Assembly (NCBI GenBank): GCA_027078745.1
Contig: JALWWO010000019.1
Coordinates: 124,001 to 188,000, forward strand
DNA length: 64,000 nucleotides
Origin: Chromatiaceae bacterium
GTDB lineage: Bacteria; Pseudomonadota; Gammaproteobacteria; Chromatiales; Chromatiaceae
Reading direction: 5' to 3'
The notes beneath the pieces were generated by a model. The model made no database searches. It was not told the origin of the DNA and worked only from the letters and a program-made list of their open reading frames with translations. A program made the position numbers and the translations under genes. Below, one piece after another: positions 3,177-58,813 of the stretch (positions are counted from its first letter, which is position 1; each line of letters starts with the position of its first letter).

Positions 3177-3245
3177 GATGCCAGGTTCCGAATTTTGCGG
3201 TATCGTTCCCAATGAGAAGCGTGGATCGGTATAGCAGCATATCGG

Positions 3246-3500
3246 ATGACTAGCCACACAAAATCGCGGGATCAGCTCCGGCAGAAAATTCACCAGCGTC
3301 GGATCGAGCTGGCCCACATGGAATCAGACCTCGCCTATTTCCAAGCGCGTCTGGAGATCCTCGGAGAACCCAAGACCACCAGCGAGATCGCACAACGCAA
3401 ACTGTTCCGCATTCTCAGCCGCACGATTGGCAATAAAATCGTGGAGATCCGGCGAGAACTGGCCCAGCGCAAGAAAGCCCAACAGCAACGACGGGGTTAA
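3246..3500 (+). CDS. small charged coiled-coil protein, unknown function
   Basis: An 84-residue basic, helix-rich protein with no Cys, no signal peptide and no membrane segment. Its middle (MESDLAYFQARLEILGEP) and C-terminus (EIRRELAQRKKAQQQRRG) have the heptad-like charge pattern of a short coiled coil. It diverges from sucA with about 70 bases between start codons, and its stop overlaps that of the convergent ferredoxin gene by 4 bases. No clear ribosome binding site precedes the ATG at 3246, so a later start is possible. I do not recognise a family. The clean fit between neighbours and codon use like theirs favour a real gene. Confidence 0.6.
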   Translation: MTSHTKSRDQLRQKIHQRRIELAHMESDLAYFQARLEILGEPKTTSEIAQRKLFRILSRTIGNKIVEIRRELAQRKKAQQQRRG

Positions 3501-3814
3501 GAGTCCGGCAGACGCAGTCGGTCCAGGATCTTACCCGCTAGGAGATGGGTTTGCAGGATCTCTTCCAGATCCTCCCGATCCACATAGGTATACCAAACCC
3601 CCTCGGGATAGATGACCAACACAGGGCCTTCCTCACAGCGGCCGAAACAACCGGCGGAATTGATGCGCACTTTCCCGGGCGCTGAAATGCCCAGTTCCTT
3701 GGTTCGCTGCTTCAGATAGGTTCTGGATTCTCTCGCGCCGAACTGCCCACAACAGGGGCTGCCGTCTTCTCGAAGATTGGTGCAGATGAACACATGATGG
3801 CGATAGTAGCTCAT
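3497..3814 (-). CDS. (2Fe-2S) ferredoxin, thioredoxin-like fold
   Basis: A protein of 105 residues resembling the single-domain thioredoxin-like 2Fe-2S ferredoxins related to the NuoE C-terminal domain. The cluster ligands are visible as Cys11 and Cys21 or Cys22 (FICTNLREDGSPCC) and CFGRC at about 56-60 (SAGCFGRCEEGPVLVIYP). The start at 3814 is set by a strong GGAGG 7-8 bases upstream; the frame is open to 3937, but that extension lacks such a site. It is divergent from the GlcF-like Fe-S protein, so the two redox proteins may share the control region of about 50 bases between them. The electron partner is not shown by the sequence. Confidence 0.85.
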   Translation of the reverse strand: MSYYRHHVFICTNLREDGSPCCGQFGARESRTYLKQRTKELGISAPGKVRINSAGCFGRCEEGPVLVIYPEGVWYTYVDREDLEEILQTHLLAGKILDRLRLPDS

Positions 3815-3864
3815 GGGCCCTTCCTCCGTTTTAAGGCGGTCTTCTATCCTACTGCTTGGGGAGC

Positions 3865-5049
3865 ATGTTGACAGTACTTGGAAAAGAGCTGAGCGATGCC
3901 TTGGATCAATGCGTCCGCTGTGGGTTATGTCTGGCATCCTGCCCCAGTTACGGATTGTTGCAGGTAGAAGGCGATTCCCCCCGAGGCCGTCTCGCCTTGA
4001 TTCAAGGAGTTATAGAAGGTCCGCTCTCCCCCTCTAAAACCCTGCGTCGGCATTTGGACAACTGCTTGGGCTGTCGGGCCTGCGAACCGGTCTGCCCTTC
4101 CCTGGTGCCCTTCGGTGAAATCTTGGTGGAAGCCCAGGGTCGGCTGCTGGCAGAGGCGCCGCTGGTCCAACGGCTCGGGCGGCGGTTGCTGATCGGCCTC
4201 TTCAGCCGTCCCGCCGGGCTGCGCCTGCTCCTGGGCAGCCGCGCTGTTCATCGCTTTCTCAAGCTGTCCTGGATATTGCGCCGGTGGGGCGGGCCGCTGC
4301 TGGGCACTTTGGACCGGTTGGCCGATCTGCCCCTGCGCTTGCCCCATCTTCCCGCACCCGATCCCCAACCCCAAATCCACCTGTTCACCGGCTGCATCGG
4401 TCGGGCGGTGCAGGCCGATGCCCTGGAAGCGGCGGTCTTCGTACTGCAGCGCTTGGGCTACAGCATCGCCTATTCCTCGGCGGATCATTGCTGCGGTGCC
4501 CTGCATCGGCACAACGGATTGATCCGGCAAGCGGATCAGCATCTGACCCGCAATGCGCGGGCCTACGAACAGCAAAATTTGGTGGGTTTGGCCAGCGCCT
4601 GCGTGGCCGAACTGCGCCGAGATCCTCGCCTGAATGCCCAGGAACTCTGCCGGTTTCTTGCAGACCTGCCCCAACCGTTGCCCCTGCGGCCCTTTTCGGG
4701 TCGGGTCGCCATCCATGTGCCCTGTTCCCAGCGCAATGCCCTGGCCGACGCGCGGGCGGCTTTCGATCTGTTGTCCCGAATTCCCCAGCTGCACCCCTGG
4801 GCGCTTCCGGAAAACGACCGTTGTTGCGGGGCCGCAGGCACCTATCTGTTGCGGCGACCTCGGCTTTCCCAGAGACTGCTGCAAGCCAAGCTGGATGCCC
4901 TGGCTCGCCGAGCACCGGATATACTGGTGACCACCAATCCGGGCTGCGCCCTGCATCTCGCCGCAGGCATTCGGGCGCAGGGGCTCGCGGTCCCGGTCCT
5001 GCATCCCGTCGAGCTCATCGCCCGCCAGCTCATCACTGAATCTTCCTGA
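3865..5049 (+). CDS. (Fe-S)-binding protein, glycolate oxidase GlcF-like
   Basis: A protein of 394 residues. Two 4Fe-4S motifs sit near the N-terminus (CVRCGLCLASCP and CLGCRACEPVCP), followed by two cysteine-rich CCG domains (FTGCIG with DHCCGALHRHNG; HVPCSQRNAL with DRCCGAAGTYLL) and NPGCALHLAAGI. This is the layout of GlcF, the Fe-S subunit of glycolate oxidase, and related oxidoreductase subunits. The flavoprotein subunits glcD and glcE are not adjacent, so the partner is unknown. The start is uncertain: ATG 3865 has GGGGAG only one base away, while TTG 3856 and TTG 3868 are alternatives. coq7 follows after 16 bases on the same strand and may be cotranscribed. Confidence 0.8.
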   Translation: MLTVLGKELSDALDQCVRCGLCLASCPSYGLLQVEGDSPRGRLALIQGVIEGPLSPSKTLRRHLDNCLGCRACEPVCPSLVPFGEILVEAQGRLLAEAPLVQRLGRRLLIGLFSRPAGLRLLLGSRAVHRFLKLSWILRRWGGPLLGTLDRLADLPLRLPHLPAPDPQPQIHLFTGCIGRAVQADALEAAVFVLQRLGYSIAYSSADHCCGALHRHNGLIRQADQHLTRNARAYEQQNLVGLASACVAELRRDPRLNAQELCRFLADLPQPLPLRPFSGRVAIHVPCSQRNALADARAAFDLLSRIPQLHPWALPENDRCCGAAGTYLLRRPRLSQRLLQAKLDALARRAPDILVTTNPGCALHLAAGIRAQGLAVPVLHPVELIARQLITESS

Positions 5050-9371: not shown

Positions 9372-9854
9372 TTAACCCTCCGCGTTTCGGATTTCTTGCT
9401 CCAGAATATCCAAGGTCTTGAGAAGGGTTTCGGAAGCACCGATCAGTTCATCCAGGTGCTCCCGGGCTTGAACTTTGCGCGCCTGGGGAGATTCTTTGTG
9501 CCAGAGTCTGGAGAGCCCCTTTTTCTCCTCCTTGTGAATGGTCTGGTAGATGCGTTCATAGATCGCGTGGAGTACTTTATGAGGGGTAGCGATCGCCTGG
9601 TAGGCATCCAGGTGCCCTAGTAGCTTCTGGCCTTCCCCGTAGTACCATTTCCCAAAAGTGCAGTCCGTGTGCCGAACAGGCACTTTGTTTTCTTCGATCT
9701 CCACGCCGGAAATGATGGCCTGCGCATAGGAACGCCAGCGCATATGGGCACTCTTCGCCGCCCGAATCTGGGCGAGCACGGCGTCCCTATCCACACCTTT
9801 AGGAAGGGTTCTATGGATCTGCATGGGGCTATTCTCTGCAATGGTGGTAATCAT
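9372..9854 (-). CDS. stand-alone CZB-domain zinc-binding protein, copy 1
   Basis: A protein of 160 residues, first of three paralogues. The CZB (chemoreceptor zinc-binding) domain is seen through the His in KSAHMRWR, the core VRHTDCTFGKWYYGEG with its Cys, HKVLHAIYERIY and the His in REHLDELIG. These are the expected three His and one Cys for zinc. In known proteins CZB is attached to chemoreceptors or diguanylate cyclases (DgcZ, TlpD), where zinc or hypochlorous acid changes signalling. Here there is no output domain. The ATG at 9854 has AGGA 6 bases upstream; the frame is open to 9905. A promoter-like pair at 9917-9946 matches the one before copy 3. Confidence 0.82.
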   Translation of the reverse strand: MITTIAENSPMQIHRTLPKGVDRDAVLAQIRAAKSAHMRWRSYAQAIISGVEIEENKVPVRHTDCTFGKWYYGEGQKLLGHLDAYQAIATPHKVLHAIYERIYQTIHKEEKKGLSRLWHKESPQARKVQAREHLDELIGASETLLKTLDILEQEIRNAEG

Positions 9855-9916
9855 AGGAAATCCTAGTAGGTTATTTCGCTGCGCCCCAGGAATGGGCAGA
9901 CACAACGACCCTACAG

Positions 9917-9946
9917 AGCATAGCCCAAAAAAATTACTTATGTAAA
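9917..9946 (-). promoter_or_regulatory. sigma-70-type promoter for CZB copy 1
   Basis: On the minus strand TTTACA (9946-9941), an 18-base spacer and TATGCT (9922-9917), about 60 bases before the copy 1 start. The same block (agagcatag, then an A-run, then ctta/ttatg) recurs upstream of copy 3, so it was duplicated with the gene and kept. Confidence 0.5.
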
Positions 9947-9992
9947 GAGAAGAATTAATTACGGTATCGACCGACTTCAGCCCCTGTCAAGC

Positions 9993-10025
9993 ACCTGTCC
10001 CGTCCCGTCGCGGGACGGGACAGGT
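9993..10025 (-). terminator. perfect 15-bp inverted repeat after CZB copy 2, probable terminator
   Basis: Left arm 9993-10007, 3-base loop, right arm 10011-10025; all 15 pairs match and are G+C rich (cctgtcccgtcccg). It begins 2 bases after the stop of copy 2. No T-run follows on the minus strand, so it may be an RNA-end stabiliser or an imperfect intrinsic terminator for the copy 3-copy 2 transcript. Confidence 0.5.
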
Positions 10026-10027
10026 AC

Positions 10028-10486
10028 TCACAGAGCCGTATCCCGGATCTCCTGTTCCAGCATTTCCATGGCCTTGAGCAAGGTGTCGGAAACGCCGATC
10101 AGTTCTTCCAGGTGCTCCCGGGCCTGTGCATACTTCTCGGTCTCCAAGGTCTTCTTGGAACGCAACAGCTTGTGCAATGCGCCCTGTCCATTGCCCTGCA
10201 GGATCTGATAGATGCGCTCATAGACGGCGTGGAGCATCTCATGGGGCGCAGCGATGGCATCATAGGAAGCCAGATGGCCCAGGATCACTTGGCCGCGACC
10301 GTAATACCATTTTCCAAAGCTGCAATCCATGTGCTTGACCGGTAGCTTATCGCCGCTGATCTCCACGCCGGAAATCATGGCCTGCGCATAGGCGCGCCAG
10401 CGCATATGGGCGCTCTTCGCCGCCCGAATCTGGGCGAGCACGGCGGATTTGTTGATGGTTTGGGGCAGGGTCTTCACGTTGGGCAT
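10028..10486 (-). CDS. stand-alone CZB-domain zinc-binding protein, copy 2
   Basis: A protein of 152 residues, closest to copy 3. Shared blocks are AVLAQIRAAKSAHMRWRAYA, VKHMDCSFGKWYYGRG, HEMLHAVYERIYQ and REHLEELIG; the expected zinc ligands (three His, one Cys) are present. No signal peptide, membrane segment or output domain is seen, so it is a soluble single-domain protein. AGGAG stands 8 bases before the ATG. It lies 43 bases after the stop of copy 3 with no conserved promoter between, so copies 3 and 2 probably form one transcript ended at the hairpin at 9993-10025. Confidence 0.82.
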   Translation of the reverse strand: MPNVKTLPQTINKSAVLAQIRAAKSAHMRWRAYAQAMISGVEISGDKLPVKHMDCSFGKWYYGRGQVILGHLASYDAIAAPHEMLHAVYERIYQILQGNGQGALHKLLRSKKTLETEKYAQAREHLEELIGVSDTLLKAMEMLEQEIRDTAL

Positions 10487-10529
10487 AGCTATCTCCTCTG
10501 CGCGATGGGGGTTAACAGCTTCCTTGCGA

Positions 10530-10988
10530 TCATTCAGACTCCCGCACTTCTTGCTCCAGCATTTCCAACGCCTTGATCAAGGTGTCGGAAACGCCGATCA
10601 ACTCTTCCAGATGTTCCCGCGCCTGGGCTGCTCGCTTGCGCGCCAGGGTCTCTTTGCTCGTCCAGAGTCGAGAAAGCCCTTGCTTTTCTTCTGCACCCTG
10701 CAGGATCTGATAGATGCGCTCATAGATGGCGTGCAACATTTCGTGAGGGGCAGCGATCCCCTCATAGGCGTCCAGATGACCGAGCAACACCTGCCCTTTG
10801 CCGTAATACCATCGTCCGAAACTGCAATCCGTGTGTTTGATGGGCAGTTTGCCGTCATCGATTTCCACCCCGGAGACAATGGCTTGGGCATAGGCACGCC
10901 AGCGCATATGGGCGCTCTTCGCCGCCCGAATCTGGGCGAGTACAGCAGGTTTATTGGTGCTTAGGGGAAGGGCTTTGACAGGCTGCAT
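10530..10988 (-). CDS. stand-alone CZB-domain zinc-binding protein, copy 3
   Basis: A protein of 152 residues with the same layout as its two neighbours: KSAHMRWRAYA, IKHTDCSFGRWYYGKG, HEMLHAIYERIYQ and REHLEELIG, and thus all four expected zinc ligands. It has a short unrelated N-terminus (MQPVKALPLSTNK). GAGAGGA precedes the ATG by about 10 bases. It is first of the probable copy 3-copy 2 transcript. A promoter pair lies at 11076-11103, and a triple 34-bp repeat lies further upstream, between it and hemE. Confidence 0.82.
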   Translation of the reverse strand: MQPVKALPLSTNKPAVLAQIRAAKSAHMRWRAYAQAIVSGVEIDDGKLPIKHTDCSFGRWYYGKGQVLLGHLDAYEGIAAPHEMLHAIYERIYQILQGAEEKQGLSRLWTSKETLARKRAAQAREHLEELIGVSDTLIKALEMLEQEVRESE

Positions 10989-11259: not shown

Positions 11260-12330
11260 CTACGCACTGCATTCGTGATAAGCGGGGCTGAGTTCGTGGA
11301 CTGCTTCCACCAGCACGGCTGCATGATCCGGCGGGGTATCCGGATGAATGCCATGTCCCAGATTGAACACATGACCGCTGCCGGTGCCATAGCTTTCCAA
11401 CACGGCGGCGACCTCCGCCCGGATGCGTTCCGGAGAGGCATAGAGCACGCAGGGATCTAAATTGCCCTGAAGCGCCACACGTCCCTTCGTCTGTGCGCGG
11501 GCATCCCCCAGATCCATGGTCCAATCCACGCCCAGGGCATCGCAACCCGTGGTTGCCATCCGAGAGAGCCATTGCCCTCCTCCCTTGGTGAAGAGGATCA
11601 CCGGCACCCGGATACCCTGTACCCCCCGAATCAACCCCGCGATCACCTGCCTCATATAGGCGAGGGAAAATTGTTCGTAATCCTGAGGCCGGAGCACGCC
11701 GCCCCAGGTGTCGAAGAGCATCAGAGCTTGGGCGCCACTCTCCACCTGGGCATTGAGATAGGCGGTTACTGCCTTCGCCAGTTTGTCCAGGAGCTGATGG
11801 AGCAGGGCCGGTCGGTCGAACAATAGGGTTTTGATGCGGGCGAACTGCTTTGCGCTGCCCCCTTCCACCATGTAGGTGGCGAGGGTCCAGGGGCTGCCGG
11901 AAAAACCGATGAGGGGCACCCGTCCAGCCAATTCCCGCCGGATGAGGGCCACCGCATCCATCACATAGCCCAGGTCTGCCATATCGGGCACGGCTAAGGC
12001 ACGGATTGCCCGCTCCGTGCGCACAGGTCGTTCGAAAGCAGGCCCCTCCCCCTCTGTGAAATACAGCCCCAAGCCCATGGCATCCGGTACCGTGAGGATA
12101 TCGGAGAAGAGGATGGCCGCATCCAGGGGAAAGCGCTCCAAAGGTTGCAGGGTGACTTCACAGGCCAATTCCGGCGTGCGGCACAGATTGAGAAAGCTGC
12201 CCGCCCGCTGCCGTGTTGCCCGATATTCGGGAAGATAGCGTCCCGCCTGACGCATCATCCAAACAGGGGTATAGGGCACGGGTTGGCGCAGCAGAGCCCG
12301 CAAGAAAATATCGTTTTTCAAGTCGGTCAC
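11260..12330 (-). CDS. hemE: uroporphyrinogen decarboxylase
   Basis: A protein of 356 residues (family about 355) that removes four carboxyl groups from uroporphyrinogen III to give coproporphyrinogen III in haem synthesis. Signature regions are [19 protein letters not shown] near the N-terminus, [17 protein letters not shown] with the catalytic Asp, [34 protein letters not shown] and the C-terminal [12 protein letters not shown]. The start is GTG at 12330, fixed by homology ([16 protein letters not shown]). No Shine-Dalgarno sequence is seen and a promoter-like pair lies very close, so the leader may be only about 10 bases. It diverges from the symporter gene. Confidence 0.96.
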
Positions 12331-12347
12331 AGGAGATCCAGAGAATT

Positions 12348-12377
12348 ATTATCCAAGCATTGGATGATCAGTGTACA
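12348..12377 (-). promoter_or_regulatory. probable hemE promoter
   Basis: On the minus strand TGTACA (12377-12372), an 18-base spacer and GATAAT (12353-12348). Transcription would begin about 10 bases before the GTG start of hemE. Confidence 0.4.
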
Positions 12378-12397
12378 GCGGAAGGGAACGGCTGATC

Positions 12398-12403
12398 TAT
12401 ACT
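12398..12403 (+). promoter_or_regulatory. -10 element for the symporter gene
   Basis: TATACT on the plus strand, 32 bases before the ATG of the AGCS symporter gene. No good -35 hexamer is seen at 16-18 bases, so this is a weak call. Confidence 0.3.
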
Positions 12404-12435
12404 GAGCATTCCACTGGCACCGAGGGAAGAGATCG

Positions 12436-13770
12436 ATGGACCCTATCCACCATTTTGTGCAACAGATCAATGCCTTAGCTTGGGGCCCACCCATGCTGAT
12501 TCTGATCCTAGGCACTGGCTGCTTTCTCATGCTCGGGTTGCGCGGGTTTCCCCTGCGGCGGCTGGGCTACGGCTTTCGGATGCTGTGGGCAGGGCGCAAG
12601 GCAGCGGGAGCAGGGGATATCACACCCTTTCACGCCCTCATGACCTCGCTTTCCGCCACCGTGGGCACGGGGAACATTGCGGGGGTAGCGACGGCCATCG
12701 CCTTAGGGGGCCCTGGCGCCCTGTTCTGGATGTGGTGCACTGCCCTGGTGGGCATGGCCACCAAGTATGCGGAAGCGGTGTTGGCGGTGCGGTATCGGGA
12801 ACAGGACGCCCTGGGCAATCATGTGGGCGGGCCCATGTACTACATCAAGAACGGGTTGGGCCGCCGTTGGGCCTGGTTGGGGGGCCTGTTCGCCTTCTTC
12901 GGGGTGGTGGCAGGTTTCGGCATCGGCAACCTGGTGCAGGCGAATTCCGTGGCCCATGTGCTGAACGAGAACTTCCAGATTCCCGCCTGGGTGGTGGGGC
13001 TGAGCATGGCCGTTCTCGCCGCGGGGGTGCTCTTGGGCGGCATCCGCCGGATCGCGACGGTGGCGGGCAAGCTGGTGCCTTTCATGGCGCTGTCCTATCT
13101 CGCCATCGGTCTGATCGTGCTCGCCATGAATCTGGAACGCTTAGGTCCGGCCCTGCAGCAGATCTTCACCGGCGCGTTCACGGGAGAGGCGGCGGGGGGC
13201 GGCTTCGCCGGTGCCACGGTCTGGGCAGCCATCCGCTTCGGGGTAGCGCGGGGGGTGTTTTCCAATGAAGCGGGGCTGGGCAGCGCACCCATCGCCCATG
13301 CGGCGGCCCAAACGGATGATCCGGTGCGGCAAGGCACGGTGGCCATGCTGGGCACCTTCATCGATACCTTGGTGGTCTGTACCCTCACAGGCCTGGTCAT
13401 CGTCGCCTCAGGGGAATGGGTGAGCGGTGCGAGCGGTGCAGCCCTGTCCGCCAGCGCCTTTGAGCAATCCTTGCCCGGCTTCGGCGGGGTGCTGGTGGCC
13501 CTGGCCCTGAGTTTGTTCGCCTTCACCACCCTGTTGGGCTGGAGCGTCTACGGGGAACGGTGTACGGAATATCTGTTCGGCGTGCGGGCCATCATCCCTT
13601 TCCGCTGGGCCTGGATCGCGGCGGTTCCCCTGGGTGCCCTGGCTAAGCTGGATTTCGTCTGGCTCCTCGCCGATACGCTGAATGCGCTCATGGCCCTGCC
13701 CAATCTCATCGCCCTGTTGCTCCTGAGTCCGGTGGTCTTTCGGATCACGCGGGCATCTTGCCAGCGCTGA
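12436..13770 (+). CDS. sodium:alanine (AGCS family) symporter
   Basis: A protein of 444 residues with about 10-11 hydrophobic segments, matching the alanine or glycine:cation symporter family (AgcS, AlsT, DagA), which imports small neutral amino acids with Na+. Landmarks are ALMTSLSATVGTGNIAGVAT, the family signature early in the protein, GGPMYYIKNGLG, the Gly-rich GVFSNEAGLGSAPIAHAAA and FAFTTLLGWSVYGERC. It is divergent from hemE. The next gene, ppk2, starts 65 bases downstream. The exact substrate (Ala, Gly or another) cannot be told from sequence. Confidence 0.93.
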   Translation: MDPIHHFVQQINALAWGPPMLILILGTGCFLMLGLRGFPLRRLGYGFRMLWAGRKAAGAGDITPFHALMTSLSATVGTGNIAGVATAIALGGPGALFWMWCTALVGMATKYAEAVLAVRYREQDALGNHVGGPMYYIKNGLGRRWAWLGGLFAFFGVVAGFGIGNLVQANSVAHVLNENFQIPAWVVGLSMAVLAAGVLLGGIRRIATVAGKLVPFMALSYLAIGLIVLAMNLERLGPALQQIFTGAFTGEAAGGGFAGATVWAAIRFGVARGVFSNEAGLGSAPIAHAAAQTDDPVRQGTVAMLGTFIDTLVVCTLTGLVIVASGEWVSGASGAALSASAFEQSLPGFGGVLVALALSLFAFTTLLGWSVYGERCTEYLFGVRAIIPFRWAWIAAVPLGALAKLDFVWLLADTLNALMALPNLIALLLLSPVVFRITRASCQR

Positions 13771-46136: not shown

Positions 46137-46828
46137 GTGCCAATCCTCGCCTCCTCATCGCCCTGGATTTTCCGAGCGCAACCCAAGCCCTCGCTTTGGC
46201 AGCGCAGCTGGATCCAAACCGCTGCCGGCTCAAGGTGGGCAAGGAACTCTTCACCCGCGCCGGGCCCGCCTTGATCGAGCGCTTGCAGGGTGCGGGCTTC
46301 CAAATCTTTCTGGATCTGAAATTCCATGACATCCCCAACACGGTGGCAGCCGCCTGCCGCGCGGCGGCGGATCTGGGGGTTTGGATGCTGAATGTGCACG
46401 CTTCCGGCGGTCCTGCCATGCTGGAAGCAGCGCGGGAAGCCTTGGCCGCCTATGCCCAGCCCCCGAAACTCATCGCCGTCACCCTGCTCACCAGTTTGAG
46501 CGCTTCGGATCTGCGAGCCATCGGCTGTTCGGGCGATCCCCTGGAACGGGTGCTCTTGCTGGCAAAGCTGGCTCAGGAAGCGGGTTTGGATGGTATCGTC
46601 TGTTCCCCTCGGGAAGCCGCCGAGGTGCGGGCGGCTTTGGGCAGGGATTTCCTGCTGGTCACCCCGGGGGTGCGTCCTCGGGGGGCGGATTTGGGAGATC
46701 AAAAGCGGGTGATGACCCCGGCGGAAGCCCTGGCCGCCGGCGCGGATTATCTGGTCATCGGGCGCCCTATCACCGCTGCGCCGGATCCTCTGGCCGCTCT
46801 GAATACGATTGAGGAAACCCTATCATGA
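46133..46828 (+). CDS. pyrF: orotidine 5'-phosphate decarboxylase
   Basis: A protein of 231 residues that makes UMP in the last step of pyrimidine synthesis. Visible are [32 protein letters not shown], the catalytic [13 protein letters not shown] (Asp-Lys-Asp tetrad), VHASGG, VTPGVRP and [13 protein letters not shown]. It overlaps lapB upstream and galU downstream by ATGA, so it is read as part of the long operon. Confidence 0.96.
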
Positions 46829-47703
46829 ACAGAAAACCCATCCGAAAGGCAGTCTTTCCGGTGGCCGGACTGGGCACCCGCTTTCTCCCCGCCACCAAGG
46901 CAAGCCCTAAGGAAATGCTGCCCATCGTGGATAAGCCCTTGATCCAATATGCGGCGGAAGAGGCTGAGGAAGCGGGACTTCGGCAACTGATCTTCATCAC
47001 CGGACGCGCCAAGCGGTCCATCGAAGATCATTTCGATAAGGCCTATGAGCTGGAGATGGCATTACAGCGCAGCGGCAAGGAAAAACTGCTGGAAATCGTG
47101 CAGAACATCTTGCCCCCGGAAGTGAGCTGTATCTACATCCGGCAAGCGGAAGCCCTGGGATTGGGGCATGCGGTGCGCTGCGCCCAACCCGCCGTGGGAG
47201 AAGAAGCCTTCGCGGTGCTGTTGGCGGACGATCTCATCCGAGGCACTTCAAAAGGGGCCATCGCCCAGCTTTCCGCGCTGTACGAACGCTTCGGGTGCAG
47301 CGTGCTCTGTGTGGAAGAAGTACCGCCTGAAGAAACCCATCGCTATGGCATCGTGCAGACGAAACCCGGTCCTCAGGGCACCCTGCGGGTGGTCTCCATC
47401 GTGGAAAAACCCGCGCCGGAAACTGCCCCCTCCAATCTCGCCGTGATCGGTCGCTATCTGCTCAGCCCTCGGATCTTCGCGAAGCTGGATCAGACTCCCA
47501 GGGGAGCCAACGGGGAAATCCAGCTCACGGATGCCATCTCCGCATTGCTCCAAGAAGAGTTGGTCCTCGCCCATCCCCTTCAGGGCAAGCGCTATGATTG
47601 CGGCAGCAAGCTGGGTTATCTGAAAGCCCAGGTGGAATATGGCTTAGCCCATGGGGAGCTGAGAGAGGCGTTCCGGCAATATCTGCGCACGCAACGCTTC
47701 TAG
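46825..47703 (+). CDS. galU: UTP-glucose-1-phosphate uridylyltransferase
   Basis: A protein of 292 residues that makes UDP-glucose, the donor for surface polysaccharide. Motifs are [20 protein letters not shown] (nucleotide-binding loop), [59 protein letters not shown] and [13 protein letters not shown]. It is last in the 35.6-47.7 kb operon and meets the giant glycosyltransferase gene head-on, with stop codons overlapping by 4 bases. Confidence 0.95.
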
Positions 47704-50700
47704 AGCCCTAGCGAGGAGAAGATCTCCAGCAAACGGCGACGAGCGGTTTCTGAGGAAAACCGAGTGCGCACGTTTTCCAAGCCCGCCTGAGAAAGCCGAT
47801 TCCAGAGGTCGGCATCTTCATAGAGCCGCAGGATCTCCCGCGCAAAGGCATCTCCAGATTCGGCGATCAGCACGTTTTCCCCATGGCGCAGGAACATGCC
47901 CTCCACCGCAGCGGGGGTGGCTACCACCGGCAGCCCATAGCTCATGCTCTGGTTTACCTTGCCCTTGACCCCGGCCCCATACCGAAGGGGCGCGATGGAA
48001 ATTCGGCAGCCTTCCAGATAGGGTTGCAGATCCTCCACATAGCCCAGCATGTTCAGGCCCGCCCGCTGGCCGTATGCCCGCAGATCCGCAGGCATCTTGC
48101 TGCCGATGATCTGGGCTTGCACTTCGGGAAGCTGAGCGCGCACCTGGGGCCAGATCTCTTCCGCGAAGAACTGCACCGCATCCACATTGGGAGGGTGCTG
48201 GAACCCCCCCACGAACAGCAGATCCTTCCGCGATGCAAAGGGCTTCACCGGTTCCACCGGATCGTGCACATTGCTCAGCACCTGAACCCGGGCTTTCGGG
48301 CATTCTCGCGCGAGTAGATCCCGTTCCACTTCGCTGACCACCAAAGTGAGATCGCTTCGCGCGATCACGGTCATTTCCTCTTCATAGGCCTGCTTCGCCA
48401 ACTGCCGCGTCTTGGCGCTGCCGTCCAGGGCCGCTTGCCGCCGCAGGCGGAGGAAGTGCAAATCGATGGTATCGAACAGGATGTAGACTTGGGGCGCGAT
48501 GCGCCGGATCAGGTCCACATATTGAATGGCGATATAGTGCCTGCAGAGGACCACCGCATCATATTGGGCGAGTTGCTCCCGCAGATACTGAGTGACTGAG
48601 GTAATGTAGGGCGCATAGAGCACCTCGATGCCCTGTTGCTGTAGCGCCCTCACATAGGGTTCCCGATATTCCAGATTGTCCGCGACAAAGCTGACTTTCA
48701 CTTCCATTTGCCGGAGCAATTGGAGCAATCGCCAAGTGCGCAGGGACCCGGAATCCTGATCCGGCGTGAGCATACAGGCTTCGATCCACAGAATCCGGCA
48801 GCGTGCGTTCCGATCTCGGGCCCGTTCTGGCTGCACCCCGTTTTCCTCATGCTGCGCCAGTCGGGCTGCCCATTTCTCTAGAAATCGCTGGCGATTCCGC
48901 TGTTGATAGGCCTTGATGCCCGTGCTCTCGTCCGTGCCGTGGGAGATTCCCTCTAGATGCACGATGGCGGCCTGGGGCTGATAGAGCACCCGATCGCCCT
49001 GCTCCTGGAGCTGAAAGCACAGATCTGTGTCCTCGTAATAGGCGGGGGAGAACCGTTCATCGAAGCCCCCCAGCTCAAGAAACCGTTGGCGGGGGATCAG
49101 CAAGCAGGCACCGGAACAATAGTCCACTTCCCGCACATAGTTGAAACGCGGATGGTTTGGATCTTCGCCCCGGCCGAAGTTCCAAGCGCTGCCATCCCGC
49201 CAGACGATGCCCCCCGCTTCCTGTAGGGTACCGTTGGGAAATAGGAGCTTGGCCCCCACGGCGCCCACATGGGGCCGCGATCGAAAGGCGGATAAGAGGG
49301 CCTCCAACCAGCCTGGCTGCACCAGGGTATCGTTGTTCAAGAAGACCAGAAATTCCCCGTTCGCCAGTTCTGCGGCGCGGTTGCAGGTTTTCAGGAAACC
49401 TAAGTTTTCTTCGTTTCGATGGATCCGCAAGTTTTCCACAGAAGCCAGGGCGGCTTGCGCCGGCTCTCCGGGGAAGGCATCGTCCATGAGGAGGATTTCC
49501 AAGGGGATGTCCGGCGTGTGCTGAGCGATGCTTTCCAGACAAGCAAAGGTGACACCGTGCTGGCCGTAGGTGGGGAGGAGAATGCTCACCTGGGGTTTCG
49601 CTGCGCGGGGCAGCTTCAGGGGATGGCAGCGCTGCTTTTGGGCAAGCTCCTCTTGGGAAAGCACGAGGGGCGGCGGGGTGGACTGTGCGGTTCTCGCCCG
49701 TCGGCGGGCTTGCCAAGCTTGGGCCAGGGCAGGCATCCCCCCTTCTTGCAAAAGCCTTCTCGCCCGCTGGACGCGGTGGGGGAGCTGCCTGCCGAATGCC
49801 TGCGCGCTTCGAAGCGCATCACGGCTCTGTTGGGTGAGCAGGCGCAGGGGATAAGTGAGCTTCCAAAACTGGCTTTCCTCGAATTCCCGCACCTGGGCCC
49901 GCAGGGCGGCCACCGTCCGTTCCAGGTGTTGCACATGGCGGTGATGGGCGAGATCGTAATCGCGCAGGGATTGCTTGAGTTCCGCCACTTCTTCGGACAA
50001 GCGGTCCCGTTGCTGGCCCCCTTCCCGAAGCTGCCGCCCCTGATCGGCGATTAAGTCTTCCAACTGGGCGATCTGGGCTTCCCGCGCTGCGACCTGTGCC
50101 CGCAAATCTGCGATCTGCTGTGCTTGCTGTTCCGACCGTTTCACCAGCGCCCGCACCGAGCGAGGCAGCTGTTCCGCCGCTTCCCATCGCCCTTGCTCCA
50201 AGGCGGCGGAAATCAGGGTTTCCAAAGGCGGTGGGGGCGGTCGCCGAGCTTCCGGAAACCGGCATCGATCTTCCGATAGATCGGGCGGTGCAGTGTCGGG
50301 GGGATGCGAGGTTAAACCTTCTAAATATTGCTGAAAGTAGCGTTCAGGTAGATCGGGATCGGGCAATACCGGCTGGCGATCTTCGGCGGGGGAAAAGCCA
50401 GCGGGCAAAGCGAGGAAGCGCAGGTTCCAGGTTTCCGCATCCGTGTCCAAGGGCAGGAGCTGGGCTTGAGGATAATCCGATAATCGTTCCGGAAAGGCCC
50501 CCAGCTCGGTAGCAACGATGGGCAAACCGGTGCGCTTGGCTGCGGAGAGGGTATAGGAATAGGTTTCCGGCACCGAGGCCGGGAAGAAAAAGGCATCGGG
50601 TCGTTCCTGTTGGATAAGGGCTGCCAGGGCTTCCGGCGCATATTCTCCGGTGCAGGAAAGATAGGGCTGGAGGTCCTTGGGAATGGGTGCGCCGCAGGTG

Positions 50701-52256
50701 CCCAAAATCCGAAAGTGCAGGGGATGATTTCGGGCGCGGGCTTCTCGGGCACATGCGAAGAGGGTTTTCAGCCCCTTGTGGAAATCCGTGTGCCCCAAGA
50801 TGGCGATCTTGCGATCGTCCGGGGAAAGGATCGCTGGTTCCCAAGGCTCGGGATGGGGCAGCACGGAAACGGGCAGATCGGGAAAAAAGCGGTGCAAGCG
50901 GTCGGCTACATCCCGACTGGGAGCAATCAGGCGCTCCGCTCTGCCGAGGAAACGGGCAAACCGCTGCCGCCAGGTCTGAATGTCCCAGTGCCAAGGATGG
51001 GGGCGTTCTGCCAAACAGGCTTGGCAAACCAAAGCATCCGGCTCTTTGCAATAGGTGCCCTGGGTTCCCCCCAGATGGTATTGCGGGCACAGGGGAAAAT
51101 AATCGTGGAAGGTGCACCAGAAGGGAACCCCCAGGATCTCGGGGAGATCCAGGATATTCGAGGGAAATCCCTGTATGTGATGGTAATGGATGCGCGCGAG
51201 ACCCAGGCTTCGGAGCACGGAGATCAGGGCTTCCGATTCCTCGTGCAGATCGAAATAGAGGGCGAAGACTTCGTCTGGATGCGCCCAGTGCAGCCGGTGG
51301 ATGCGGTCCCCCAAAGGTTGGAGCACCAGGGGTTCGAGGGCATTCCCCAACAATCGGACGAGGACATCCAGATGCTGCTGCACGCCTCCGCCCCAACCGT
51401 GGCTGATGAAGAGCACCCTGGGTTTTGGGGACTGACCCAGTCGGGCGAGATCGACGGTGCGCTTCAACTTGCGGGCGGGATCGCGTGCGAAAAAATCCTG
51501 CACGGACTGGGCGTACTCAGGATAGCGCGCATCGATGATCGTTTGGGCCCGTTCGATCCGCGATTGTCGCGCGGTACCGAAGGAAACCGCGCCTTCGTGA
51601 TAGACGAAGGTATCCCCGCAGAGCACGTGGCGATAGCCCAACGCCTTGGCCCGCTGGCAGAAATCCACCTCTTCCCCATAGCCCACGCCGAAGGTTTCCG
51701 CATCGAATGGTCCTACCGCCTGCAAACAATTCCGGCGGACATAGAGACAGAACCCCACGCCAGTGGGAATCTCAAACTGCAATCCAGCACCATATTGTCG
51801 AAACAGGGCATCCAATCGGGCGAGATCTGCTGGCGGGGGATTCTCCACCCCGATCTTGGGATAGCTGCACAGGGTGGCCCGATTGGAAAAGGGCGTGACT
51901 GTGCAGATGCCCGGCTCTGCCAGGGCACAGACCCGCAGCCGATCCAACCAATCCCCATGGACTTCCGTATCACTGTTGAGCAAAACCAGGTCCCGTTCCG
52001 GATGCAGTTGGATCCCCTCGTTGATGGAACGGACAAAGCCCTGATTCTCGGAGTGTTCGATAAGCGTGATGCGGGGATCTCGGCGAGCGAATGCTCGAAT
52101 AAACTGGCGCAGCTGAGGGTCTGGGGTGCAATCGTTGATAAGGATCAATTCCCAAGGGGTGCGTTGGGGATGCTTCAGCAGAGCATGGAGGCATCGTTGG
52201 GTTTGCCGCAAACCGCGATAGAGGGGAACGATGATGTCGACGATGGAATCCTGCAT
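47700..52256 (-). CDS. giant glycosyltransferase with two GT2 and two GT4-like domains
   Basis: A protein of 1518 residues in four catalytic parts. About 6-215: GT2 ([48 protein letters not shown]). About 277-640: GT4-like ([55 protein letters not shown]). About 700-795: long coiled coil ([20 protein letters not shown]). About 888-1125: second GT2 ([53 protein letters not shown]). About 1150-1515: second GT4-like domain ([59 protein letters not shown]). There is no signal peptide or membrane segment. It probably builds a surface glycan such as O-antigen or a protein glycan; donor and acceptor are not visible. Confidence 0.88.
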
Positions 52257-52352
52257 GAAAGCTCTGCATCCTTTACACCGTTGAGAAGAAAAGGAATTCT
52301 ATACAGGTTTAGCAGTGTTGACAGCGGTTGCACGGGAGGAAACGGATTGACC

Positions 52353-53198
52353 ATGGGGGGCAAGTGGTTTCTCAATGGGGTTTGGATCTGGGGATGCATA
52401 TGCGTCGTTATTCTCGGCCACAGCTTTCAGGGACGAGCTGCGGAGGACCCGTTTCGAGGGGTTTGGCAGAGTCAGGATGTGCATCAGTTGACCGCTTGGG
52501 GACAGCGCTATGAATCCGGCGTGGGCGTGGGTCGGGATCTCCAAAAGGCCCTTCGCCTCTACTGCAAGGCCGCGCGTCTGGGCCATGGAGAAGCGCAATA
52601 CCGCTTGGGGCAGCTCTATCTCTTCGGGCGTGGGGTGAAAAAGGATCTGGCGCAGGCAGCAGCTTGGCTCTTTCGGGCGTACAAGGCAAAGCACCGGAAG
52701 GCGGCGACTTTGTTAAAGGTGCTCAAGGTGCAAAAGGTCCCCACGCAACCCGCCCGTTGCTCCTTGGGTAATTCGGAACAACCCAAGCTGCGCACCCATC
52801 CGGCAACCGGTGTGATTGCCCAGCTGGTGCGGAAGCTCGCCCCGCGCTATCGGCTCGATCCCAATCTGGTGCTGGCAGTGATCGAAGCGGAATCCAACTT
52901 CAATCCCCAGGCGAGATCTCCGAAAAATGCTAAAGGCCTGATGCAGCTCATTCCGGCCACCGCCAAGCGCTTTGGAGTCAACGATGTGTGGGATCCGGAA
53001 CAGAACCTGCGGGGCGGCATGGCCTATCTGCGCTGGCTGCTGGATCATTTCGAGGGCAATATCGCCCTCGCCTTAGCCGCCTACAATGCGGGGGAACAGG
53101 CGGTCAAACGGCACGGGGGTGTGCCCCCGTACAAGGAGACTCAAGCCTATGTGCAGCGAATTCTGCGGCGGCTTGGCCTCCAGGGAAAGACTGGTTAG
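52353..53198 (+). CDS. lytic transglycosylase with N-terminal Sel1 repeats
   Basis: A protein of 281 residues. It has a signal peptide (WFLNGVWIWGCICVVILGHS), two Sel1-like repeats at about 60-125 (ALRLYCKAARLGHGEAQYRL; LAQAAAWLFRAYKAKHRKAA) and a C-terminal SLT domain at about 155-275. The catalytic Glu is in AVIEAESNFNPQA (about 179), followed by KGLMQLIPATAKRFGV and LALAAYNAGEQAVKRHGG. It cleaves peptidoglycan in the periplasm. The start is ATG 52353; TTG 52347 has better spacing from GGGAGG. The frame is open far upstream, antisense to the glycosyltransferase, and that part is rejected. It diverges from the glycosyltransferase by 96 bases. Confidence 0.88.
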   Translation: MGGKWFLNGVWIWGCICVVILGHSFQGRAAEDPFRGVWQSQDVHQLTAWGQRYESGVGVGRDLQKALRLYCKAARLGHGEAQYRLGQLYLFGRGVKKDLAQAAAWLFRAYKAKHRKAATLLKVLKVQKVPTQPARCSLGNSEQPKLRTHPATGVIAQLVRKLAPRYRLDPNLVLAVIEAESNFNPQARSPKNAKGLMQLIPATAKRFGVNDVWDPEQNLRGGMAYLRWLLDHFEGNIALALAAYNAGEQAVKRHGGVPPYKETQAYVQRILRRLGLQGKTG

Positions 53199-55726: not shown

Positions 55727-57025
55727 GTGTCTCAGAAAACCATGATACTCACCGATCCAGATACGGGGCGTTCTCTCGAACTGCCGGTCCGCGAGAGCAC
55801 CATCGGCCCGCCTGCCCTAGAAGTGAGCAGTCTTTATCGGGAATTCGGTATCTTCACCTATGATCCCGGGTTTCTGTCCACGGCGAGCTGCACCAGCCGG
55901 ATCACCTACATCGATGGGGAGCAGGGCATTCTGCGCTATCGGGGGTATCCCATCGAAGAATTGGCTGCCAAGACCAGTTTTTTAGAAGTGGCCTATCTGC
56001 TGCTCTATGGCGATCTGCCCTCGGAAACCCAGCTCACGACTTTCGAGGATTCCATCAGCCGCCACAGCATGATCAATGAATCCCTCAAGCGCTTCTTCGA
56101 TGGGTTTCACTATGATGCCCATCCCATGGCCATGCTCATCGGGGTGGTGGGCAGTTTGTCCGCCTTTTACCACGATCACTTCGAGTCCCACGAAAATATT
56201 ACCCAGGAACAGCGGGAGTTAGTCGCCCATCGGCTCATCGCGAAAATGCCCACCATCGCCGCTGCTGCCTATAAACATAATCTGGGCGAACCCTTTATCT
56301 ATCCCCGCCGCGATCTGCGCTATGTGGCGAACTTCCTCAACATGATGTTCGCTACTCCCTGCGAGCGCTACCGCATCAGCCCCCTGGCGGAGCGGGCCAT
56401 GAACCTGCTCTTCATCCTGCACGCGGATCACGAGCAGAACGCAAGCACCTCCACCGTGCGCTTAGCGGCCAGCTCCGGCGCCAATCCCTATGCCTGCATT
56501 GCGGCGGGCATCACTTCCCTTTGGGGGCCTGCGCATGGTGGGGCCAACGAAGAAGTGCTCAAGATGCTGGGCGAGATTGGCACCGTCGATCGGATCGATC
56601 AATATATTGCCAAAGTGAAGGATAAGAGCTTCCGGCTCGCGGGTTTCGGCCATCGGGTGTACAAGAACTATGATCCCCGCGCCAAGATCATTCGAGACGT
56701 CTGCCATCGAGTGCTCGAAGAACTCGCCGATGGCAGCAATCCCCAATTCGAACTCGCCCTGCGGTTGGAGGAAATCGCTCTGAAGGATGAATACTTCCTG
56801 GAACGGAAGCTCTATCCCAACGTGGACTTCTATTCCGGCATCATCTACCGAGCCCTGGGCATCCCCATCAATATGTTCACCGCCATGTTCGCCATCGCCC
56901 GCACCGTGGGTTGGGTGGCCCATTGGATAGAACTGACCACAGACCCAGAATACCGCATCGGCCGTCCCAGACAACGCTATGTGGGGGAACCCCTGCGGCA
57001 GATCCGACCCATCCGGCAGCGCTGA
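55727..57025 (+). CDS. gltA: citrate synthase
   Basis: A protein of 432 residues, the size of the hexameric NADH-sensitive type II enzyme. It condenses oxaloacetate and acetyl-CoA. Catalytic regions are seen in [53 protein letters not shown] and [18 protein letters not shown] (catalytic Asp). The GTG start at 55727 follows AGGAGA at 6 bases; an ATG two bases earlier is out of frame. It has its own upstream region and no operon partner. Confidence 0.97.
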
Positions 57026-57064
57026 AGCGTGAGGACAAACGGGTAGAATTCGCAGGGATGCGAA

Positions 57065-57102
57065 TGGACAGGATCGACCATATTGGACAGGATCGACCAT
57101 AT
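57065..57102. repeat. two head-to-tail 19-bp repeats upstream of a DUF1566 gene
   Basis: Units 57065-57083 and 57084-57102 are identical (tggacaggatcgaccatat). They stand 43 bases before the ATG of the first DUF1566 gene and are followed by an A+T-rich stretch (tataaaaa), where a promoter would be expected. Confidence 0.85.
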
Positions 57103-57144
57103 TATAAAAATTCCCCACTCCCCCTAATTCGTCGGGACAAATCC

Positions 57145-58149
57145 ATGAAATACGGGAACCACCAGTCCAATCTCATCATCCACCCCGCCAAGATGATTCC
57201 GCTTCTATCGTCTGTGCTGCTTTCAGGCCCAGGGATCGGCGCGGAAATTTGCAATGGCATCTCATCAAAAACTATTGATGCCAGTATGTCTCTGAACGCT
57301 GGGGACACTTGTACCGCCACGCAAACCATCACCCTCGATTCCGGCGTTACGGTTCCCGACAATATTTCACTATATGCGCCGGTCGTGCGCTTTTTCAGCC
57401 CGGTTTACCTACAGGGGAACTTGCATATAGCGCAGAGTGACCCGGCGACGACCCCATCACCGCTCAACGATACGGGTATCACCTGGTGTGCTGACGATTC
57501 AGACAACGACTTGTCTTGTCCTGTAACTGGTTATCCCGGGCAGGACGCTGAGTATGGGCGTGATGTAACCCACAACGACGATTCCGACGGCCATGCCGGT
57601 TTCAGCTTCACGAAGCTCGATGCGGAGGGCAATCCCCTGCCCGCCAGCGCTACCAGTTGGTCTTGTGTGAAGGACAATGTGACGGGATTGATCTGGGAGG
57701 TGAAGACCGACGACGGCGGCTTGCATGACAAGGATGATCTTTACAACTGGTACAGCACCTATCCCAACACCAACGGCGGCGGTATGGGCTATGCGGATGA
57801 TGATGGCGCGATTTGTTATGGCTATGATCCCAATGATCCGGCTACCTATTGCAATACCCAAGCCTATGTGATACGGGTCAATCAAGCGGGCTGGTGCGGC
57901 TATCATGACTGGCGCATGCCCACCATAGAAGAACTGCGCTCCCTGGTGGATTATTCTCTGCCTTCTCCTGGGCCAACGATCGATACGGACTTTTTCCCCA
58001 ACCAAGTGAATTCGCAGATGTGGTCATCGTCGCCGGATGCCAGCCATCCGCTCGGCGTGTGGCTTCTCGATTTCGGCTATGGAGGAAACTGGGCGGGCGG
58101 TAAGGACATGTCCCAGTTTTTTGTTCGTGTCGTGCGCGGCGGAAAGTGA
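57145..58149 (+). CDS. secreted DUF1566 domain protein, copy 1
   Basis: A protein of about 334 residues. It has an N-terminal export signal (KMIPLLSSVLLSGPGIGAEI), a short beta-rich region of the kind that binds or lies on surfaces (ATQTITLDSGVTVPDNISLY), then a DUF1566 (Lcl-like) domain at about 170-334: DNVTGLIWEVKTDDGGLHD, YHDWRMPTIEELRSLVDYS, QMWSSSPDASHPLGVWLLDF, VRVVRGGK. The domain has a C-type-lectin-like pattern. The ATG at 57145 is chosen because the upstream frame runs into gltA. The gene is more A+T rich than its neighbours. It is followed by a second, shorter member. Confidence 0.75.
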   Translation: MKYGNHQSNLIIHPAKMIPLLSSVLLSGPGIGAEICNGISSKTIDASMSLNAGDTCTATQTITLDSGVTVPDNISLYAPVVRFFSPVYLQGNLHIAQSDPATTPSPLNDTGITWCADDSDNDLSCPVTGYPGQDAEYGRDVTHNDDSDGHAGFSFTKLDAEGNPLPASATSWSCVKDNVTGLIWEVKTDDGGLHDKDDLYNWYSTYPNTNGGGMGYADDDGAICYGYDPNDPATYCNTQAYVIRVNQAGWCGYHDWRMPTIEELRSLVDYSLPSPGPTIDTDFFPNQVNSQMWSSSPDASHPLGVWLLDFGYGGNWAGGKDMSQFFVRVVRGGK

Positions 58150-58279
58150 CAGGGCATTTGTTATTTATTTTCCTTTTTAAGAAAATATCATACAGCAATC
58201 CCGATAGGGTGTGATGCAAACCATTTGTTGTACTCAAAAATCAAGTTTGACCACTGCCGGCTCATCTGAGGAACCTATC

Positions 58280-58813
58280 ATGAACCGATTTGACTTTAGA
58301 CCCTTTATCTTGTGGGTAGCTTTATTTCTAGTATCCGTTGGTGCGGCCCGGGCAGCGCAATATTGTAGTTCCCATATCCCCCGGTCCACGCCGGATGCCG
58401 ATTTTGTGGATCACGGGGATGGCACCGTCACCCATAAGGAAACCGGTTTGATGTGGAGCAAATGTCTGCTAGGTCTAAGTGGCGATGACTGCGAATTCAT
58501 CACCGATGATAATATTCACTATACCTGGCAAGAAGCCTTGGAAGCAGCGGAAGCTTCTACTTTAGCCGGTTACAACGACTGGCGCTTGCCCAATATCAAG
58601 GAACTGGCTTCTATCGTGGAACTGGCCTGTTATGCTCCTACGATCAATCTCACCATTTTTCCCAATAACCCAACTGTGTATGTGTGGTCGTCGTCGCCGG
58701 GTGCCAACAACTATCCGCGCTACGCGTGGGTTCTCTCTTTCTACTTGGGGATGAGCGACATGTACGGTAGGCACGAGGGCAATCATGTTCGGTTAGTGCG
58801 CGGCGGACAGTGA
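58280..58813 (+). CDS. secreted DUF1566 domain protein, copy 2
   Basis: A protein of 177 residues with a clear signal peptide (FILWVALFLVSVGAARAA) and one DUF1566 domain: DHGDGTVTHKETGLMWSKC, YNDWRLPNIKELASIVELAC, VYVWSSSPGANN and HVRLVRGGQ. It lacks the extra N-terminal region of copy 1. GAGG lies about 9 bases before the ATG. Four or more Cys in the mature part (YCSSHIP, SKCLLG, DDCEF, LACYAP) could form disulfides. Base composition is again lower in G+C than flanking genes. The two copies share the WSSSP and VR-VRGG ends, so they are duplicates that diverged. Confidence 0.75.
   Translation: MNRFDFRPFILWVALFLVSVGAARAAQYCSSHIPRSTPDADFVDHGDGTVTHKETGLMWSKCLLGLSGDDCEFITDDNIHYTWQEALEAAEASTLAGYNDWRLPNIKELASIVELACYAPTINLTIFPNNPTVYVWSSSPGANNYPRYAWVLSFYLGMSDMYGRHEGNHVRLVRGGQ

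Follow-up and report, generated by a model that had tools for sequence, protein, structure and literature searches.

The window, by which we mean the whole stretch of 64,000 nucleotides analysed here (contig JALWWO010000019.1 of a Chromatiaceae bacterium), carries on its minus strand an uninterrupted, ATG-initiated open reading frame (ORF) at positions 47700-52256. The encoded protein of 1518 residues, called P0001 below, has two pairs of glycosyltransferase (GT) units, each a GT2 unit followed by a GT4 unit, one pair on either side of a predicted coiled coil. Its gene is laid out as follows, in window coordinates.

47700..52256, minus strand: whole gene of P0001, 1518 codons, in the order GT2-GT4-coil-motif-GT2-GT4 (from the ORF and Pfam)
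51432..52256, minus strand: GT2-1, residues 1-275, with D42, N94-x-D96, E195-E196 and H220 kept
50322..51431, minus strand: GT4-1, residues 276-645, GT-B fold, with E564 kept and A572 at the second EX7E position
49878..50162, minus strand: predicted coiled coil, residues 699-793
49842..49877, minus strand: coil-end motif, residues 794-805 (WKLTYPLR at 798-805)
49677..49850, minus strand: basic, possibly membrane-docking stretch, residues 803-860, of low model confidence
48837..49604, minus strand: GT2-2, residues 885-1140, with D925-D926, N974-N975-D976, E1075-D1076 and H1100 kept
47703..48809, minus strand: GT4-2, residues 1150-1518, GT-B fold, with EX7E replaced

An initial annotation, made from the DNA letters alone, had proposed this four-unit layout, and we confirmed it by the ORF, Pfam profiles, structure models and two relatives that have all four units. 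Relatives were collected from 14 loci of named genomes and by searches of 55, 369 and 96 further genomes (overlapping sets). The annotation had also named a frame error joining separate genes as a possible source of the long protein. This was ruled out because two other genomes (loci L001 and L055) carry the same four units in one chain; moreover, the GC content by codon position is similar in both gene halves and in the neighbouring genes.

The Pfam profiles PF00535 (GT2; best stretch 891-1007), PF13692 (GT4; best 1344-1481) and PF13439 (GT4; best 290-468) each match two stretches of P0001 and pass their cut-offs on the whole protein, single stretches being counted at E 1, the only threshold that the weaker copies pass. 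On GT4-1 alone PF13692 stays below its cut-off (24.9 versus 27 bits), and the assignment of this unit therefore rests also on PF13439, on relatives and on the fold. AlphaFold models of the two protein halves, made with 12 and 4 aligned sequences (mean pLDDT, the model confidence, 76.6 and 71.7), were compared with solved structures. GT2-1 matched GalNAc-T2 (6nqt; Z 20.6, root-mean-square deviation (rmsd) 3.6, 235 residues aligned), while GT4-1 (Z 22.8, rmsd 3.6, 325 aligned) and GT4-2 (Z 31.8, rmsd 3.0, 345 aligned) both matched 6kih. The assignment of GT2-2 is based on sequence, by its profile and by phmmer matches. Both GT2 units thus show a GT-A fold or GT2 profile together with the first Asp, the DXD/NXD motif and an acidic base, and both GT4 units combine a GT-B fold with a Pfam GT4 profile.

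We then aligned the catalytic residues with those of relatives (27 sequences for GT2-1, 25 for GT4-1, 30 for GT2-2 and 31 for GT4-2). In GT2-1, D42, N94, D96, E195 and E196 are each invariant (27/27); in GT2-2, N974, N975 and D976 occur in all 30 sequences, and E1075 and D1076 in 29. The canonical EX7E motif was found in neither GT4 unit: GT4-1 has the first Glu only (E564, kept in 24 of 25 sequences), with a second position (A572) that varies among relatives, and GT4-2 has neither Glu. In the latter unit four residues are invariant in all 31 sequences, namely K1431, K1433 and the two that fall on or next to the first EX7E position, G1427 and A1428; at the second position (Q1436) the four commonest residues are Q (18), T (5), L (4) and E (2). 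A check of DxD and EX7E residues, suggested in the initial annotation, hence came out in favour of the GT2 units and showed a departure in the GT4 units; catalytic loss in two or more domains, which it had named as speaking against the enzyme, is on paper half the case. Because relatives mostly share the substitutions, the departures look like a variant active site of the family rather than decay, and we regard the units as GT4-fold relatives of putative activity.

The coil of about 95 residues also stood up to analysis. It is made up of two predicted helices (699-742 and 747-793) with a break in the model at 743-746, and the 3.5-residue hydrophobic periodicity of residues 699-793 was matched by 60 of 5000 shuffles, against 913 to 4124 for five control stretches; the periodicity is weaker for the single helices (784 and 368 of 5000). 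An extended coiled coil between catalytic units, a hallmark of WbdD/WbbB-type proteins, is thus present by prediction. It ends in S-x-x-W-[RK]-x-T-x-P-L-R, followed by a basic stretch. Searching the ORFs of at least 150 residues in the loci collected by that stage with the pattern W[RK]x[TMS]xP[LIVMA]R, we found 20 distinct sites among 763,567 residues, whereas a single shuffle of every ORF gave no site. One site, in a short unrelated frame of L056, looks like chance; a coil is predicted just upstream of 17 of the 19 others, the exceptions being L002, which the contig start truncates, and L012. The 15 residues counted from PLR, whose Arg itself contributes one charge, have a net charge of +2 or more in 39/39 carriers (five further carriers were too short), and among all windows of the same proteins this one has a median percentile of 0.91 for hydrophobic moment and 0.93 for charge. 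A search of the PDB with the motif profile gave nothing significant (best E 0.62), and none of six motif strings was in print in the literature searched.

We built a profile of 40 positions from 18 rows (A3), which matched 59 of 369 genomes of the class (E <= 0.01) and 45 of 397 of the phylum (1e-5). The class-level search returned 30 loci, five of them with training proteins. Among the 25 non-training loci the Pfam families were GT2 (PF00535, 7), GT4 (PF13692, 7), S-adenosylmethionine-dependent methyltransferase (5), RgpF (3), FkbM (2), PIG-L (2) and WbsX (1), a tally in which families overlap and which does not establish one per locus. A coil is predicted before the motif in 19 of the 25 loci, and in 10 of the 25 no more than 27 residues separate the motif from the C-terminus, many frames being cut by the fetched stretch. 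P0001 was the sole A3 match found in its own genome, where 20 of 30 first-look candidates were scored. As a separate observation, a GT2 enzyme (9559-10725) and a PIG-L enzyme (11606-12604) of one locus, L011, both end in coil and motif, which suggests a heteromeric assembly.

The profile also reached a characterised protein. A search with wzt-like DNA matched 374 of 5,426 E. coli genomes; four of the ten matches listed were examined and six proteins scored with A3, two of which matched. One is the O9 WbdD (L185:10169-12601, 810 residues), a chain terminator of proven function whose coiled coil acts as a ruler; here the match falls at the expected place, the coil end (residues 677-701, S-R-S-W-R-M-T-K), and is followed by a basic stretch. 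This match is modest (best domain 17.8 bits, E 0.00057; whole sequence E 0.00016, computed against 6,095 locus ORFs and seven named proteins). The other is a plasmid-encoded multi-GT protein beside wzm-wzt (L186; 23.5 bits).

The motif tracks the genes of the Wzm/Wzt exporter, an ABC transporter of surface glycans. Scoring neighbourhoods of up to 9 kb on each side, several of them cut by contig ends, we found wzm and wzt near 13 of the 25 non-training motif loci and near none of 14 slices taken as controls from 11 of these genomes (Fisher p 0.0009); the loci in part share genus or family and so are not fully independent, and the control slices were placed arbitrarily and do not stand for other glycan loci. 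A partial check comes from 17 loci that have a C-terminal-half protein lacking the motif (L078-L094), of which 1 has the pair.

The relatives further show how the parts of P0001 are combined. All four units occur in one chain in P0001, in L001 (Luminiphilus, 1546 residues) and in L055 (1793 residues), the last with an extra N-terminal methyltransferase and with the gene order wzm, wzt, four-unit relative. In L060 the N-terminal pair and a coil are followed by a GT2-GT4 pair of another kind; L057 and L058 have a GT4-like unit, a coil and the C-terminal pair; L061 a methyltransferase, a coil and the N-terminal pair; and L059 and L026 the N-terminal pair, a coil and a GT2 unit. The GT pairs are therefore modules, which may precede or follow a coil. 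The N-terminal half (about 650-830 residues) and the C-terminal half (about 700 residues) also occur as separate proteins, and L009 has both as separate genes within one wzm-wzt locus. Such stand-alone GT2-GT4 proteins of Competibacteraceae and of the window genome's own family share about 30-55% identity with single P0001 domains, but their halves lie in separate genes, and in six loci coil and motif form a third, small gene directly after the N-terminal-half gene (L003, L004, L005, L007, L008 and L014; four titled Competibacteraceae and two 'Proteobacteria bacterium'). In these six small proteins the motif site is the C-terminus. No small coil gene was found in L006, whose contig ends 540 bases on. 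The N-terminal region of the small protein (L003:7898-8452 and the other five loci) appears conserved by eye. In trees bearing on a single origin of the fusion, P0001, L001 and L002 form a group with 100/100 support by their C-terminal halves, whereas the N-terminal halves do not resolve. Literature phrases for four-GT proteins led to papers that appear to deal with heparan sulfate, chondroitin sulfate or giant viruses.

Taken together, we consider it probable, though well short of certain, that P0001 is a WbdD/WbbB-like, coil-scaffolded assembly enzyme for a surface glycan exported by the ABC transporter Wzm/Wzt. The proposal of the initial annotation, an enzyme that assembles several sugars and whose coil is a spacer or ruler, is best supported because the coil-end signature is common to O9 WbdD and tracks Wzm/Wzt loci; the ruler function, membrane docking and a division of labour between the pairs are inferred, and the processivity in that proposal is putative. 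P0001, in which no transmembrane segment was found (top 19-residue hydropathy mean 1.16), would be cytoplasmic and peripherally membrane-bound. Its two GT2-GT4 pairs would add chain sugars, separated by the coil, whose length would reach about 14 nm at most if the 95 residues form one helix. The C-terminal end of the coil and the basic stretch (residues 790-860) may dock on the membrane beside the C-terminal pair, which would extend a lipid-linked chain there. At the opposite end of the coil, the N-terminal pair would meet only those chains that have grown to its distance, and would add side or cap sugars to them; alternatively, it may supply a second set of linkages.

Known systems share parts of this design. 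The long coil of WbdD of E. coli O9/O9a ends C-terminally in S-x-S-W-R-x-T and then a basic stretch, comparable to the coil end of P0001, and PMC3482155 and PMC11231755 describe its C-terminal region as recruiting the polymerase WbdA to the membrane. WbdD, however, is a methyltransferase and kinase with no GT, its polymerase being separate, whereas P0001 has four GT units in one chain. WbbB (Raoultella terrigena / Klebsiella O12) has a terminator, a helical spacer and two polymerising GT units in one chain, according to PMC9587256. The comparison with WbbB and WbdA suggested in the initial annotation thus holds for the layout of WbbB (N-terminal unit, spacer, two C-terminal polymerising GT units), but the N-terminal unit of WbbB is a GT99 Kdo transferase in place of a GT2-GT4 pair, and the motif profile matched neither the one E. 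coli GT99 protein scored (L188) nor WbdA. ORF6-O7 of Klebsiella O7 likewise has an N-terminal module, a coil and a C-terminal GT pair, but there, according to PMC11231755, a methyltransferase-kinase and two GT2 units. A methyltransferase-domain protein beside wzm-wzt in L187, whose likeness to ORF6-O7 is only a guess, lacks the motif. As an observation on WbdD itself, the protein encoded on plasmid pABWA45_4 (810 residues) contains in its coil a repeat present three times at a spacing of 51 residues, and PMC3482155 gives 708 residues for O9a WbdD; the repeat copies are a natural lengthening of a ruler.

Several results weigh against an assembly enzyme of this kind. The P-L-R part of the motif is absent from WbdD, and A3 matched neither the E. 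coli WbbB-type GT99 protein and WbdA nor the methyltransferase-domain protein and a GT4 of L187. Domain searches found no terminator domain (methyltransferase, kinase or GT99 Kdo transferase) in P0001; we therefore do not class it as a member of the WbdD/WbbB type, although it may function in a similar way. The pLDDT is below 50 over much of the connector 788-863, and the position of the pairs is not fixed, the N-terminal-type pair being at the C-terminal end in L061, L042 and L043. Loci of the N-terminal type lie near wzm and wzt in 13 of 27 cases, many of one family, and those of the C-terminal type in 4 of 28. Flanks were at hand for six multi-GT relatives that carry the motif (L001, L055, L057, L058, L060 and L065), of which L055 alone has the pair nearby; a laxer profile finds the module also in L062, which lacks the pair, and in the N-terminal-half proteins of two loci that have it, L009 and L011. 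In the window no wzm was found, so the gene does not lie beside wzm-wzt there, and the nearest pair found is about 134 kb off on the same contig. One ABC-ATPase in the third quarter of the window matches Wzt (7.7e-16). The genome's own Wzt_C match is under the cut-off (22.8 versus 30.4 bits). Elsewhere in the genome, the stretches examined hold at least three wzm-wzt pairs, two of them about 17 kb apart on contig C8 (L066:4421-6022 and L067:10784-12421), one of which is followed by a stand-alone C-terminal-half paralogue of P0001.

An alternative is a sequential, non-processive enzyme whose four units each add one sugar to a fixed oligosaccharide, such as the outer core of lipopolysaccharide (LPS) or a Wzx/Wzy repeat unit, the coil serving for dimerisation or spacing only. 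The missing capping domain, the orphan gene, the Wzy_C/WaaL-type proteins of the genome and the nearby gmhA, lapB and galU would fit such an enzyme, but the coil-end signature common to WbdD and its link to Wzm/Wzt loci do not, and we regard this explanation as possible but unlikely. That one or both GT4 units are non-catalytic, and act as scaffold or sugar-binding parts of a partly dead fusion, seems improbable: the second Glu missing from GT4-1 and both Glu missing from GT4-2 are what speaks for it, whereas the residue states are family traits (the four GT4-2 residues in 31/31, the first Glu of GT4-1 in 24/25) and the GT-B folds match solved GT4 enzymes. We give least credence, and very little, to a glycosyltransferase acting on flagellin or another protein. 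GT2-GT4 pairs serve elsewhere as two-domain flagellin glycosyltransferases, and the GT2 units resemble GalNAc-T folds or sequences, a likeness of fold only. Some relatives, however, adjoin Wzm/Wzt, and no flagellin was found in the 97% complete genome by a search that was positive in 4 of 14 named genomes; flagellin glycosylation was rejected on this ground.

The coil-end signature is a more general finding than the four-unit enzyme. We tentatively propose, with less confidence than we attach to the assembly enzyme itself, that the coil, S-x-S-W-[RK]-x-T-x-P-[LMV]-R and a basic amphipathic helix form an undescribed, portable docking module that brings glycan enzymes of different kinds (glycosyltransferases, methyltransferases and PIG-L deacetylases) together at the membrane beside Wzm/Wzt exporters. 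WbdD would be its one characterised carrier and P0001 an extreme form, with two complete GT2-GT4 pairs flanking one module and the N-terminal pair in the terminator's place, where it may cap the chain with sugars in place of methyl, phosphate or Kdo. Such a signature would let coil-ruler proteins of ABC-exported glycan assembly be found and grouped across genomes, and point changes in enzymes of several classes could then be used to test membrane docking and length control. For glycan synthesis, an enzyme with four units in a single chain would offer a compact tool.

The immediate neighbours of the gene lie on the opposite strand:

46825..47703, plus strand: galU, convergent, with a 4-base overlap with the 3' end of the P0001 gene
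52353..53198, plus strand: SLT transglycosylase with Sel1 repeats, divergent upstream neighbour

The two genes galU and that of P0001 are end to end, as initially annotated, yet form no operon; as an argument for UDP-glucose supply, and for galU as a partner, this is weak, the genes being convergent and the enzyme housekeeping. A plus-strand frame of 862 residues across the gene (50610-53198) is mostly an antisense shadow, with a recognisable gene only at its end, the SLT-Sel1 frame. A scan for promoters and terminators gave nothing above chance. Candidate partners in the genome are, besides the wzm-wzt pairs, WecA-family proteins (three matches) and the Wzy_C/WaaL-type proteins (two matches). 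On contig C18 (L075:6339-8444) the domain of a GDP-mannose 4,6-dehydratase frame of 702 codons is divided into two stretches; LAGLIDADG also matches the frame weakly, and the whole looks like an intein in gmd. Farther neighbours in the window are ccm/nrf genes, gmhA, an N-acetylglutaminylglutamine amidotransferase (TIGR03104; 43168-44973, between gmhA and lapB), lapB and pyrF. Finally, positions 56911-58813 hold an Lcl_C-domain frame and an Lsa25-like frame in a region of lower GC (0.52-0.54).

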